Shown here piece after piece: positions 18,680 through 37,440 of a stretch of 64,000 nt of DNA (position 1 is its first letter; every line of letters begins with the position of its first letter). A program made the position numbers and the translations under genes. The notes beneath the pieces were generated by a model. That model was not told where the DNA came from, searched no databases, and was given only the letters and a program-made list of their open reading frames with translations. The DNA comes from Chitinophagaceae bacterium. GTDB taxonomy: Bacteria > Bacteroidota > Bacteroidia > Chitinophagales > Chitinophagaceae. The stretch covers positions 806,001-870,000 of the forward strand of contig JAMLGU010000001.1 of the NCBI GenBank assembly GCA_023957575.1. The letters run 5' to 3'.

Positions 18680-19219
18680 AAATTTTTATTCAATAAGCAT
18701 TTCATTCCTGCTTTTCGCCTCCGCAGCGATAATAATCGGCAACCAGCGATCATGCACAGCGTCATCGTGCGAAGCCAAACGGCCTTGATGCCTGAGCGTT
18801 AAAAAAATGAATGTAGTGAAGCGTTAAAAAATACCTGCTGTTTGAGCGCAGAAACGATAACTTTATCAAACGCAGGCACGAAGCGAGTTCAGGCATTTTA
18901 GCGTAACGAAATTCATTTTTAGCGAGGGCATCACAGCCTTGATTTTTGTCAAACTTTTTATCAAGAAAAAGTTTGAAAAGAAGCATACATTCTTTAATTC
19001 CTACTTTTTGCCTCCGCAGCCGGCGGGCTGCGTGGCTGCACCGGTGCTGATTTTGCTTCTTCTCGCTTTCTGCGAGATGCCGCTTACGCGGTACCGAACC
19101 AAAATAGGCGCCTCATGCAGCCACTGTTAAAAAATCGGGAAATCATTGTCGTACGAAGCAAAACCGGAATAAGCATTGTTTGAACAAAATTTGCTTAGCG
19201 CCTAAAAAATAAAATTAGC
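18680..19219. repeat. Dispersed palindrome-rich repeat, copy 1 (with nested insertion)
   Basis: Base-for-base similar along its length to 37054-37440, except for an extra block at about 18790-18943. Shared landmarks are AATTTTTATTCAATAAGC at the left end, the CTTGAT + hairpin module (18938-18976), a CGCAGCC/GGGCTGCG inverted repeat, ACGCGGTACCGAACC, and GGAATAAGCATTGTTTGAAC near the right end. Apparent open frames in both copies (63 codons) reflect repeat identity, not a gene. Confidence 0.85.
18790..18935. mobile_element. Palindromic insert nested inside repeat copy 1
   Basis: Absent from copy 2 at 37 kb. It is bounded by GGCCTTGAT at 18781-18789 and AGCCTTGAT at 18935-18943, which read as a short direct duplication. 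The insert folds on itself: GATGCC near 18787 pairs with GGCATC near 18927, and blocks AATGAAT, GCGTTAAAAAAT and CCTG are matched by inverted counterparts in the second half. No coding capacity, so a MITE-like or REP-like non-autonomous element is the best reading. Confidence 0.6.
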
Positions 19220-19254
19220 CAGATTAGGCAACTAACCGAAATCCGATTAAATTT

Positions 19255-19460
19255 GCCGCCGATTTGGTTGACACAAAAGTCATTAAAAGGGAAGTCCGGT
19301 GAGATGCCGGCGCTATCCCCGTAGCTGTGAGGCCCAACCAAATATCTCGCAAAGAGAATGTTTGAAAATGTTTTATTACATCCACTGTCATGTTTTTTGA
19401 TGGGAAGGAAATAAAACGGGCCAAGCCAGAAGACCTGCCAGATTGATTAACAATATTCAG
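19255..19460 (+). ncRNA. Cobalamin riboswitch
   Basis: The conserved core is visible: AAAAGGGAAGTCCGGTGAGA, then GCCGGCGCTATCCCCGTAGCTGTGA, and after a variable arm AGCCAGAAGACCTGCCA, the B12 box. It lies about 120 bases upstream of a TonB-dependent receptor start, in the same orientation. Adenosyl- or related cobalamin binding is expected to repress the receptor, probably by hiding its ribosome entry site, since no T-run terminator is seen before the ATG. Confidence 0.93.
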
Positions 19461-19579: not shown

Positions 19580-21442
19580 ATGAAAAAAGTAATTTTTATG
19601 CTGGCTGCTGCAATCATTGGCAGCACACTACAGGCACAGGAAAGAACAGACTCTCTTGAATTGGAAGAGGTAACAGTAACCGCAACCAAATTTTCAAAAA
19701 AACTGATTGAAACCGGAAAGGTGGTAAACATCATTACCACCGAAGAACTGAGAAGGCAGGGAGGCAAAGACCTGGCAGAAATTCTGAATGAGCAACCGGG
19801 GTTGATTGTAAACGGAGCTACCAGTAACTTTGGAAAAGATAAAGCGGTTTACCTACGAGGTGCCAACTATGGCTACACCCTGATCCTTCTGAATGGCGCA
19901 CCCGTAACCGACCCGAGCGGCGTGGGTGGCGCTTTTGATTTAAGAATATTGCCGGTGGTGCAGATTGAAAGAATCGAAATTGTAAAAGGCGCTCAAAGCA
20001 CATTATACGGAAGTGATGCTGTTGCCGGCGTCATCAATATCATCACTAAAAATAGTGGCGATAAGCCAGCAAACTTTTATGGCGGGCTCACTTATGGGTC
20101 GTACAACACTTTGAAGGCAAATGCAGGTGTGGCAGGCGCTGTCAAGGGTTCGTCTTATAATGTAGGCTTTGTACACAATGAAAGCAAAGGTATTTCAGAA
20201 GCAAAGGATACGCTTGATAAAGGTATCAGAAACGGTATGCTCTCAAATGCGGTAAATGTTGATTTGAAAGGTAAAATCGCTGAAAATCTTTACATTAAAC
20301 CTTTTTTCAGGTATGCCTATTTTAAAGGCACTTATCCCAATGGCGCTTTTGCACCTGCAAAAAACGATTATAATTCTACTTTAATTAATACCGGAAGTCA
20401 GGCGGTGTATAACTTTAATGGCGGCAGCCTCAATGGTTTGTTCTCTTTTGATAAGGTAAAAAGAACCTATCCTTTTGATAGTTATGAAGGCGCTAAAAAC
20501 ACCGCCGAACTGTTTTCCAATTATAATATTTCAAAAAATATGCAGGCTCTGGCCGGTTTTCGGTTTGATAAATTGAATATGGTGAAGCCTAATCCTGATA
20601 CAAAGGACACTTCCATTACAATTGCAAGTCCCTACGTTTCTGTTTTTCTGAAAGAATTAGGTGGTTTCTTTATGGAAGCGGGACTGCGGTACAACAAACA
20701 TTCAAAATATGGCAGCAATACTACCTTTAGCCTCAATCCTTCCTATGTAATCAATCATAAGATAAAGCTGTTTTTGAATTATGGTACTTCTTTCAGGGCG
20801 CCATCACTAACCGAGCTGTATGGTCAATGGGGTGCGAATCCAGACCTGAAACCTGAAAAATCAACTACCTTTGAAGCAGGAGCAGAACTAAAAACCGAAG
20901 ACGATTTTTTCAAAGGCAGGGTAGTCTATTTTAACAGAAATATTAAGGATGTCATCATTTATGGACCTAAATTCTCATATCTGAATTTCAATAGTCAAAA
21001 GGATCATGGTTTTGAGGCAGAAGCTCAGTTTAAGCTGAATCCTTCATTAGCGATAAAGCTGTTTTATGCCTATGTTGACGGAAAAGTTACAGCTAATACC
21101 GGCACCAAGGATACAACCTACAATAATTTATTGAGAAGGCCTAAAAACAGTTTTGGGGCCAATTTGGGTTATAATATTACGCCACAGTTTTTTGTTAGTA
21201 CCAATATTCATTACAACAGTAGCAGAAACGATCTTTATTTTGACCCGGTTACTTTTGCTTCTTCTACTATTGAGCTAAAACCTTATACATTATGGGATGT
21301 ATATGCCGAATATGGTATTTGGAAGAACAAAATAAAACTCTTTGCACAGTGTAATAATCTGCTGAATGTTGATTACTACGAGGTGTATGGTTATACCACT
21401 TTCGGTCGAAATTACAATCTGGGATTCAGGTTCAGTTTGTAA
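19580..21442 (+). CDS. TonB-dependent outer-membrane receptor, BtuB-like (cobalamin uptake)
   Basis: 620 residues with signal peptide MKKVIFMLAAAIIGSTLQAQ. A TonB box-like region (LELEEVTVTATK) leads into the plug domain (ELRRQGGKDLAEILNEQPGLIV ... RGANYGYTLILLNGAPV, RIEIVKGAQSTLYGSDAVAGVINIITK) and a 22-strand-type barrel ending in the aromatic terminus LGFRFSL. The cobalamin riboswitch directly upstream points to vitamin B12 or a corrinoid as ligand. No BtuCDF or B12-salvage gene follows; the gene stands alone with its own terminator. Confidence 0.92.
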   Translation: MKKVIFMLAAAIIGSTLQAQERTDSLELEEVTVTATKFSKKLIETGKVVNIITTEELRRQGGKDLAEILNEQPGLIVNGATSNFGKDKAVYLRGANYGYTLILLNGAPVTDPSGVGGAFDLRILPVVQIERIEIVKGAQSTLYGSDAVAGVINIITKNSGDKPANFYGGLTYGSYNTLKANAGVAGAVKGSSYNVGFVHNESKGISEAKDTLDKGIRNGMLSNAVNVDLKGKIAENLYIKPFFRYAYFKGTYPNGAFAPAKNDYNSTLINTGSQAVYNFNGGSLNGLFSFDKVKRTYPFDSYEGAKNTAELFSNYNISKNMQALAGFRFDKLNMVKPNPDTKDTSITIASPYVSVFLKELGGFFMEAGLRYNKHSKYGSNTTFSLNPSYVINHKIKLFLNYGTSFRAPSLTELYGQWGANPDLKPEKSTTFEAGAELKTEDDFFKGRVVYFNRNIKDVIIYGPKFSYLNFNSQKDHGFEAEAQFKLNPSLAIKLFYAYVDGKVTANTGTKDTTYNNLLRRPKNSFGANLGYNITPQFFVSTNIHYNSSRNDLYFDPVTFASSTIELKPYTLWDVYAEYGIWKNKIKLFAQCNNLLNVDYYEVYGYTTFGRNYNLGFRFSL

Positions 21443-23598: not shown

Positions 23599-24183
23599 AT
23601 GAATTTGGACTTTAAAGCGATTCTTACGGTAACCTTTACTCTGTTTGCGATAATTGATATTGTAGGCTCCATACCCATTCTTCTTTCTGTTAAAGAAAAG
23701 ACAGGAGGTATCAGAGCCTTTAGAGTAACGCTAATTTCAGGTATTCTCATGGCATTATTTCTTTTTTTGGGAAACTCTATTTTGAATGTGCTGGGGCTTG
23801 ATGTGCGCTCCTTTGCAGTGGGTGGGTCGATAGTAATTTTTATTTTGGGCCTGGAAATGGTATTGGGGATAGAGTTTTTTAAATCTGATGAAGATGCAAG
23901 AGCTTCTACTTTGGTTCCGTTGGCTTTTCCGCTGATTGCAGGTTCGGGTACCCTCACTACCATCATGTCTTTAAAGGCAAACTACAATGAAACCACAATT
24001 TTGATTGGTATATTTATCAATCTGGTTTTTATTTATATAGTGATAAAATCATTGAAAGGGGTACAAAAAATTTTGGGCAAAGGAGGATTATCCGCCGTAA
24101 GAAAATTTTTTGGCGTAATATTGCTGGCCATTGCCGTAAAAATATTTGCGGCAAATGCGCCGGGTTTATTGCAACACCCTTAG
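23599..24183 (+). CDS. MarC family integral membrane protein
   Basis: 194 residues, six predicted membrane segments, matching the MarC/UPF0056 family: start MNLDFKAILTVTFTLFAIIDIVGSIPILLSV (the D-P/V-G-x-x-P signature), FAVGGSIVIFILGLEMVLG, PLAFPLIAGSGTLTTIMS and the terminal RFFGVILLAIAVKIFA type helix. The family's transport role is unproven despite its name. Single gene, followed directly by the tRNA-Arg locus. Confidence 0.93.
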   Translation: MNLDFKAILTVTFTLFAIIDIVGSIPILLSVKEKTGGIRAFRVTLISGILMALFLFLGNSILNVLGLDVRSFAVGGSIVIFILGLEMVLGIEFFKSDEDARASTLVPLAFPLIAGSGTLTTIMSLKANYNETTILIGIFINLVFIYIVIKSLKGVQKILGKGGLSAVRKFFGVILLAIAVKIFAANAPGLLQHP

Positions 24184-24190
24184 CGGTATT

Positions 24191-24281
24191 GGCCTCGTAG
24201 TACACGCCCGCCCGTACCGAACATGGCGGTAGGAAGACTAAGAAGGGCGTGCGGTACGTTCGGGCGGGGATAGTACAGAAG
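24191..24281 (+). pseudogene. tRNA-Arg 5' half (nt 1-30) with palindrome in D-loop
   Basis: GGCCTCGTAGTACA (24191-24204) equals the first 14 bases of the intact tRNA-Arg at 24294. About 65 bases then intervene (24205-24269) before ATAGTACAGAAG (24270-24281) resumes the match up to tRNA position 30, in the anticodon stem. The insert has outer arms CCCGCCCG / CGGGCGGG and inner arms CGTACCG (24213-24219) / CGGTACG (24252-24258). The D-stem (GTAC/GTAC) is kept. Confidence 0.85.
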
Positions 24282-24293
24282 AAAAATAATATT

Positions 24294-24365
24294 GGCCTCG
24301 TAGTACAATGGATAGTACAGAAGTTTCCGGAGCTTCTGATCCAGGTTCGATTCCTGGCGAGGTCA
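24294..24365 (+). tRNA. tRNA-Arg (anticodon CCG)
   Basis: A full cloverleaf can be drawn: acceptor GGCCTCG/CGAGGTC (one G-T pair), D-stem GTAC/GTAC, anticodon stem GAAGT/GCTTC with loop TTCCGGA giving anticodon CCG (reads CGG, Arg), T-stem around TTCGATT, discriminator A. CCA is not encoded. It lies between the two halves of another copy of itself. Confidence 0.93.
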
Positions 24366-24380
24366 CAAAAAAGTAGTTAC

Positions 24381-24453
24381 GGTTTCGGGAGCTTCTGATT
24401 CAGGTTCCCCGCCCGAACGACGTTCAGTCGGGCGGGGATTCCTGGCGAGGTCA
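24381..24453 (+). pseudogene. tRNA-Arg 3' half (nt ~30-72) with palindrome in T-loop
   Basis: GTTTCGGGAGCTTCTGATTCAGGTTC matches the intact tRNA from position 30 with two to three changes (split here for length: GTTTCGGGAGC then TTCTGATTCAGGTTC). A 29-base insert (24408-24436) with 9-bp arms CCCGCCCGA / TCGGGCGGG interrupts the T-loop, then GATTCCTGGCGAGGTCA completes the T-arm and acceptor. Joined to the 5' half it would restore a complete cloverleaf with loop TTCGGGA. Confidence 0.85.
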
Positions 24454-24544
24454 CAAAAAATTATTACTTTGTTTAGCTTTTGGAAAACCAAAAACCTGAT
24501 TATTAAGTACTAAAGAATGCCCTTCGGCAATAAAAACTTAAATA

Positions 24545-35330: not shown

Positions 35331-35945
35331 AGTTTAAGCTATGGACTTTAGTCCAAGGCTTTAGCTTCTACAAATATCGTTGTATTTTTGTCAAATGGAA
35401 AATGTTGCCAATCGTAAAAGTAGCCATAGTGTTCATCAATTGCATGTTCATATAGTATGGAGTACAAAGTATCGGTATGGTGTAATGCGAGGCGAAGTGC
35501 AGATTCGATGCAGGGATTTAATACGTCAGATGTGCGATACGATGGATATACGGATACTAAAAGGTGTAGTGAGTAAAGACCATATTCATCTGCATATAAG
35601 TTATCCGCCGAAGTTGTCGATAAGCGAGATTGTGAAGCGTTTGAAGGGTAGAAGTGCGAGATTGCTGATGGATGAGTTTGTAGAATTGAAGAAACGTTAT
35701 TGGGGTCAACACTTGTGGGGCATAGGCTACGGAGCTTGGAGTAGTGGAAATATTACTGATGAGATGATTCAGAATTATTTGGAACATCACAGGGATAATC
35801 CAAATAGCGATGAGAATTTCATTCTTGAGTGATTTTAATGAACTTTCAGTTTACAGTTTTCAATGCTGTTTACAGCAAGTTCAAATGACTTTCAGTCAAT
35901 GTACTCAACCTATGGATTTGCAATCCATAGTTGTTTAGTTAAAAG
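35331..35945 (+). mobile_element. IS200/IS605-type element (tnpA only)
   Basis: One tnpA gene flanked by subterminal hairpins, as in IS200 elements. Left: TGGACT TT AGTCCA within AAGCTATGG... (35336-35370). Right: CTATGGATT TGC AATCCATAG (about 35909-35931), a perfect 9-bp stem. No tnpB is present. The outer ends are given approximately, because single-strand transposons leave no target duplication to mark them. Confidence 0.75.
35395..35832 (+). CDS. tnpA: IS200/IS605-family transposase TnpA (HUH Y1)
   Basis: 145 residues from ATG 35395 (a TTG 15 bases upstream is in frame but lies inside a TATTTTTG promoter-like box). HVHIVWSTKYRYGVM, the HUH pair in KDHIHLHISYPP, and the catalytic Tyr in DEMIQNYLEHH are the Y1 transposase hallmarks, with FxGYGAWS-like GIGYGAWSSGN. 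It cuts and joins single-stranded DNA at hairpin-flanked ends. The length is full, so it could be active. Confidence 0.93.
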   Translation: MENVANRKSSHSVHQLHVHIVWSTKYRYGVMRGEVQIRCRDLIRQMCDTMDIRILKGVVSKDHIHLHISYPPKLSISEIVKRLKGRSARLLMDEFVELKKRYWGQHLWGIGYGAWSSGNITDEMIQNYLEHHRDNPNSDENFILE

Positions 35946-37053: not shown

Positions 37054-37440
37054 AAATTTTTATTCAATAAGCATTTCATTCCTACTTTTCGCCTCCTCAG
37101 CGGCAATAATCGGTAAGCGGCGATCATGCGCAGCGTAATTGTGCGAAGCTAAACGGCCTTGATTTTTGTCAAACTTTTTATCAAGAAAAAGTTTGAAAAC
37201 AAGCATACATTCTTTAATTCCTACTTTTTGCCTCCGCAGCCGGCGGGCTGCGTGGCTGCACAGGCGCTGATTTTGCTTCTTCTCGCCTTCAGCGAGATAC
37301 CGCTTACGCGGTACCGAACCAAAATAGGCACCTCATGCAGCCACTGTTAAAAAATCGGGAAACCATTATTGTGCGAAGCAAAACCGGAATAAGCATTGTT
37401 TGAACAAAATTTGCTTGGCACCTTAAAAAAAGAATTAGCT
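37054..37440. repeat. Dispersed palindrome-rich repeat, copy 2
   Basis: Same element as 18680-19219 without the nested palindrome. The CTTGAT + hairpin module is at 37158-37196: stem TCAAACTTTTT (37169-37179) / AAAAAGTTTGA (37186-37196), loop ATCAAG. The rest matches closely to the right end at GAATTAGC. Single-base differences are scattered evenly between the copies, which fits non-coding drift. Confidence 0.85.

Follow-up and report, generated by a model that had tools for sequence, protein, structure and literature searches.

The tRNA-Arg(CCG) locus that follows marC in a Niabella genome (Chitinophagaceae, Bacteroidota) is probably what remains, without its ORF, of a tRNA-nested, homing-type GIY-YIG element. 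In the window, which is the whole 64,000-nucleotide stretch of DNA that was analysed, an intact tRNA is flanked by displaced pieces of the same tRNA and each piece is interrupted by a palindrome. Several relatives have a small GIY-YIG ORF at the place that is occupied here by a 15-nt spacer, and the arrangement recurs across Bacteroidota with many tRNAs.

Structure of the tRNA-Arg(CCG) locus and its relatives

The marC gene is located at 23599-24183 and the tRNA-Arg(CCG) locus lies 3' of it; the genes flanking the locus encode MarC and a short-chain dehydrogenase. ARAGORN and Rfam call a single intact tRNA-Arg(CCG) and no other tRNA at the locus. These calls, together with blocks on both sides that match the intact tRNA-Arg exactly or nearly so, confirm the original prediction that an intact gene is nested between the halves of a second copy. 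The predicted break at position 30 is also seen on both sides, with a 5' piece of positions 1-30 and a 3' piece of positions 30-73. The features of the locus are as follows.

24191-24204, + strand: 5' displaced piece, tRNA-Arg positions 1-14, exact match to the intact tRNA
24205-24267, + strand: 63-nt imperfect palindrome in the D loop of the 5' piece, in place of AT
24268-24281, + strand: 5' displaced piece, tRNA-Arg positions 17-30, ending in the anticodon stem
24282-24293, + strand: A/T spacer AAAAATAATATT
24294-24366, + strand: intact tRNA-Arg(CCG), the sole full-length match to itself found in the genome
24367-24381, + strand: spacer of 15 nt; a GIY-YIG ORF lies at the same place in G012, G004 and L127 and is absent here
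24382-24407, + strand: 3' displaced piece, tRNA-Arg positions 30-55, with two substitutions, anticodon CCG changed to CGG
24408-24436, + strand: 29-nt palindrome CCCGCCCGAACGACGTTCAGTCGGGCGGG in the T loop of the 3' piece
24437-24454, + strand: 3' displaced piece, tRNA-Arg positions 56-73

It had been claimed that the two halves make one full cloverleaf. The halves do adjoin at position 30, and the loop of the join would read TTCGGGA where the intact copy has TTCCGGA, as was stated, but the two inserts had been overlooked. Neither half is contiguous. Each is interrupted by a GC-rich palindrome in a window with a GC content of 38%, and since both the D and T loops are interrupted, the joined halves would give no plain cloverleaf. 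The D-loop insert has the arms CCCGCCCG and CGGGCGGG with a long loop between them. The T-loop insert is a clean hairpin and is the longest-armed GC-rich palindrome found in the window. Both inserts are at sites used by other tRNA-Arg members of the element, and the segment 24191-24454 has the nested order of those members, an intact tRNA between displaced pieces of itself. The GIY-YIG ORF that other members carry between the intact tRNA and the 3' piece is missing, and neither an ORF nor a recognisable remnant of one was found at the tRNA-Arg locus of the window. The locus is termed an ORF-less relic and not a complete member because the spacer holds no GIY-YIG ORF.

The synteny comparison proposed with the original prediction was carried out on relatives found via a marC search. 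Most of them have a single plain tRNA-Arg(CCG) after marC, and several have the element, with the split in one shared break region and the palindromes at shared sites. Presence and absence among relatives at one site, as expected of homing, are thus observed at the marC locus. Unrelated truncation points in the relatives, which had been named as evidence against the prediction, were not seen; the same break region recurs beside GIY-YIG ORFs. Niabella species G012 has the complete form, in which a 5' piece with the D-loop palindrome, the intact tRNA and a GIY-YIG ORF are followed by a 3' piece that starts at position 28 and has the T-loop palindrome, a second GIY-YIG ORF, another 3' piece and a truncated GIY-YIG ORF. 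G004, a single-contig genome, has one complete unit and a decayed second unit, and G002 has retained the 5' piece. Among other Chitinophagaceae, L127 and L149 share this order, include the GIY-YIG ORF and use the same palindrome sites, with the exception that the second palindrome of L149 is in the T stem. The sites ATG^GATAG in the D loop and GTTC^GATTC in the T loop are common to the window's genome (G000), G012, G004 and L127. The stop codon of the GIY-YIG ORF is often inside the 3' tRNA piece.

The flank upstream of the 5' piece in the window, TTAGCGGTAT, resembles the flank of the single tRNA-Arg in G014 and G006. From this likeness, the 5' piece marks where the tRNA originally began, and the intact copy has come to lie within the former gene. 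The displaced pieces match the tRNA-Arg of the window's own genome and not the tRNAs of relatives, therefore the event, or a later homogenisation, is specific to this lineage. An array is also present in L121 (2051-3058), a Chitinophagaceae MAG, where the intact tRNA-Arg is preceded by seven tandem units of 132 bp that are tRNA-Arg-like and have an anticodon-arm hairpin; this array has no GIY-YIG ORF.

The two inserts were first thought to be unique, as each has a single exact copy in the genome, and this was abandoned when a genus-wide search found dispersed hairpins. The 29 nt of the T-loop palindrome are identical in Niabella species G012 and G016, and a shorter hairpin with the arms of the D-loop insert, CCCGCCCGTACCGAAC and GTTCGGGCGGG, is dispersed in other Niabella. 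The position of the palindromes looks constant for each tRNA type across genera and their sequences differ. For example, tRNA-Val has them in the anticodon arm, tRNA-Ser in the anticodon and T arms, and tRNA-Phe in the T loop. Among the cases inspected, palindromes are found in the D, anticodon, variable or T arms and never in the acceptor stem. They may go in where the nuclease cuts, may be mobile in their own right or may be maintained by selection. Elsewhere in the window, two near-identical segments of about 90 nt (18940-19032 and 37160-37252), about 18 kb apart, have inverted repeats with the arms TGATTTTTGTCAAACTTTTT and CGCAGCCGGCGGGCTGCG. An IS200-type Y1 transposase ORF is located at 35380-35832 with no GC-rich palindromes beside it, and a Cobalamin riboswitch (19248-19456) lies directly 5' of a TonB-receptor-like ORF (19580-21442).

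Recurrence at other tRNA genes in Bacteroidota

Partial copies of the tRNA are found near six of the 32 tRNA loci that a search of the window's own genome returned, those for Phe, Met, Asn, Pro, Arg-ACG and Arg-CCG. No partial copies were found at these 32 loci when the tRNA was read backwards, which shows that the pieces are not due to chance. Most of the scars have no ORF. At tRNA-Leu, a surviving GIY-YIG ORF is followed by a degenerate copy with an anticodon-arm hairpin. The tRNA-Arg scar is one of several, which supports its reading as a relic, and since the ORF is missing from several scars, scar formation may not require it. In the same genome, about eight units of about 90 bp follow tRNA-Phe without an ORF (L045, 1501-2180; G000:C10, from 42853 on), and each unit consists of a tRNA-Phe 3' piece with a T-arm hairpin and a terminator-like stem.

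The Pfam GIY-YIG domain (PF01541) was searched in 17 Niabella genomes, and removal of long proteins gave 80 small ORFs, including three from the marC loci of relatives. An intact tRNA lies upstream on the same strand for 43 of the 80, where tandem ORF copies are counted separately and the cases are not all independent; about half of the small ORFs are not tRNA-linked. By our own estimate, about 0.5% of random ORFs would be found in the 1200 nt that follow a tRNA on the same strand. The distance from the tRNA end to the ORF stop is mostly about 230-490 nt, or else the ORF is a tandem follower. The linked tRNAs in the Niabella set are Phe, Met, Ser, Arg-CCG, Arg-TCT, Val, Leu, Ala and Asp. Just 3' of the ORF, 35 of the 43 have an incomplete copy of the linked tRNA, and 22 have one just 5' of the tRNA; reading the tRNA backwards gave no partial copies at the 43 linked ORFs.

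A profile of the tRNA-linked proteins matched 72 of 118 Bacteroidota genomes. In the best 30 loci, a sample biased to the linked type as the profile was built from linked proteins, 29 of 37 ORFs are tRNA-linked and 23 have a downstream partial copy (reversed control, 0). The GIY-YIG proteins cluster by target tRNA, with 14 label changes on the tree compared with 37.9 in shuffles, and the tRNA-Phe clade has support values of 98/90. This correspondence of protein clade and target gene is another property expected of homing. The tRNA-Arg-type GIY-YIG protein had no match in phage or plasmid records, and a phage or plasmid carrier was dropped as a candidate for that reason.

Other GIY-YIG loci were also observed. 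A second clade (MQKGGFVYILTN...; L193, L205, L207, L230 and similar) is not linked to tRNAs, and a dispersed repeat seems to run into the ORF in L205 at least. Another Bacteroidota genome has seven or more GIY-YIG ORFs in a row, with a spacing of about 365 bp (G092:C34:6988-9766). Eight copies of CCGATAGCTATCGG, spaced by about 164 bp, are located between tRNA-Met and a GIY-YIG ORF in G012 (C1:1403965-1405127) and are probably another array of tRNA pieces.

Proposed mechanism and rival explanations

How could an intact tRNA come to lie inside an older copy of itself? A complete element consists of a 5' tRNA piece with a palindrome, the intact tRNA, a small UPF0213-like GIY-YIG ORF and a 3' piece with a palindrome. 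By analogy with the amplification driven by SegB of phages T4/T6 and with mitochondrial mobile ORFs that carry a replacement gene end, it is proposed that the GIY-YIG nuclease makes a cut in the tRNA gene or at its edge. Repair by recombination would then install a complete tRNA and the nuclease gene inside or beside the target, and the 5' and 3' pieces would be displaced. Repeated rounds would lead to tandem arrays, the intact copy would keep the cell alive, and the palindromes in the arms of the displaced pieces would make these pieces dead and presumably uncuttable. In the window's genome, the GIY-YIG ORF at tRNA-Arg may have been lost later.

A sequence change in the intact tRNA that would protect the resident copy was not found in tRNA-Phe or in the T stem of tRNA-Arg. 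Species that have the element and species that lack it share an intact tRNA-Phe of 100% identity, thus the rescue copy is not recoded, and carriers are not set apart from non-carriers by their T-stem alleles of tRNA-Arg (Fisher p = 0.11). Protection by a recoded rescue tRNA is therefore unsupported. The solved structures closest to the GIY-YIG proteins are UPF0213 (E 2e-17) followed by SLX1 (1e-6), represented by 1zg2, 1ywl and 7cq2, and this suggests that cutting may be guided by structure. SLX1 cuts branched or hairpin DNA, an activity that would suit tRNA genes and palindromes.

The original prediction took the nested split to be meaningful, which has stood, and offered tandem decay or an integrase as its origin; the evidence points instead to a nuclease element. 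Unequal crossing-over could have duplicated the tRNA in tandem, with subsequent decay and the chance landing of dispersed palindromes, and the nuclease would then be a bystander. Arrays without an ORF do exist, as the units after tRNA-Phe and those of L121 show, and palindromes are found elsewhere in the genus. This origin is nevertheless unlikely, although it is the strongest of the alternatives, as the break region and the two palindrome sites recur at tRNA-Arg in several species and even distant genera seem to agree on where the palindromes of a given tRNA type lie. In addition, between about half and most of the ORFs examined are directly after tRNAs, and protein clades match the tRNA. The anticodon arm is a common integrase site and the break does fall within it, which keeps that part of the earlier suggestion, and the locus could accordingly be the scar of a tyrosine-integrase element at an anticodon-loop attachment site. 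An integrase is very improbable here. An integrase island was rejected for want of an integrase-like ORF among the listed ORFs near the tRNA, none was seen beside the relatives' copies, and relatives have a nuclease ORF. The palindromes and upstream 5' pieces would also be left unexplained, since 5' and 3' pieces with palindromes are, to our knowledge, not what an ordinary integrase leaves behind.

The pieces might instead act as RNA, as hairpin-bearing look-alikes of the tRNA that are co-transcribed as decoys or regulators, for example against tRNA-cleaving enzymes. The palindromes lengthen tRNA arms or stand in their place, the segment as a whole folds much better than shuffles (z = -5.4) with its two acceptor halves paired, and promoter-like sequence is often found before upstream pieces and terminator-like sequence after downstream pieces. 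Palindromes alone enforce a good fold score, however, truncation or decay of the pieces is frequent, and pieces are absent from many tRNA-Arg loci, so that a role as RNA is improbable. A functional split tRNA with halves joined after transcription is extremely unlikely. The halves do meet at position 30, but inserts disrupt the D and T loops, the anticodon would turn to CGG, an intact copy lies between the halves and the orthologous pieces in relatives are visibly decayed; an active split tRNA was rejected for lack of parts. Palindromic repeats are hard to assemble, but an assembly error is hardly credible when the same architecture is found in independent assemblies of several species, including the single contig of G004. 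A relic of a nuclease element thus remains the probable reading of the locus.

Comparison with known systems and significance

SegB is a free-standing GIY-YIG homing endonuclease whose gene adjoins tRNA genes in phages T4/T6, and it drives the tandem amplification of a segment with tRNA and nuclease via microhomology between the tRNA 5' region and the nuclease 3' region (PMC13096335). The elements described here likewise have a small GIY-YIG gene beside a tRNA, and here too the 3' end of the ORF runs into tRNA sequence; the tie in sequence that was observed is the Pfam GIY-YIG domain. In contrast to SegB, they are chromosomal in Bacteroidota, are found at many different tRNAs, leave partial tRNA pieces and not whole extra copies, and carry palindromes. 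In fungal mitochondria, mobile ORFs of Allomyces (atp6) and Glomus (atp6, atp9, cox2 and nad3) place an endonuclease ORF in an essential gene together with a substitute for the 3' end of that gene, and the displaced native end follows the ORF (PMC3630166). This is the layout in G012 and G004. Here, however, the target is a tRNA, the host is bacterial, 5' pieces are displaced as well, and the pieces are marked by palindromes.

The solved structures that match best in sequence, the UPF0213/SLX1-like GIY-YIG nucleases, belong to proteins that have housekeeping functions or are uncharacterised, and no report of a linkage of these proteins to tRNAs was found in the literature searched. REP sequences with RAYT transposases and the palindromic elements of Rickettsia are short dispersed palindromes that can lie inside RNA genes. 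They differ from the present case in that the Y1 transposase of the window has no such palindromes beside it and that GIY-YIG ORFs and tRNA pieces accompany the palindromes described here. A description of the tRNA-nested GIY-YIG pattern in Bacteroidota was not found in the mostly open-access literature searched, in which phage SegB and the mitochondrial mobile ORFs were the related cases. The finding extends known kinds, free-standing GIY-YIG elements and mobile ORFs that replace gene ends, unless the link with palindromes proves mechanistic. A more far-reaching possibility, which is held only tentatively and is doubtful at present, is that Bacteroidota harbour a distinct class of selfish elements that rely on the joint action of a tiny structure-reading GIY-YIG nuclease and short palindromes. 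The nuclease would attack the hairpin-forming arms of tRNA genes and a working tRNA would be handed back, as in a natural home-and-rescue drive, while palindromes would be written into the displaced copies at the cut sites and arrays would record past attacks.

In Bacteroidota, annotation usually assigns no role to small GIY-YIG proteins. The close link to tRNAs and the damaged copies of the same tRNA nearby give them a testable one, that of selfish invaders of essential RNA genes that spare the cell a functional copy. If this is true, they would be a natural counterpart of engineered home-and-rescue drives, many stray tRNA fragments and tandem hairpin arrays would be explained, and there would be a route to the origin of the short palindromes that are so common in Bacteroidota genomes.
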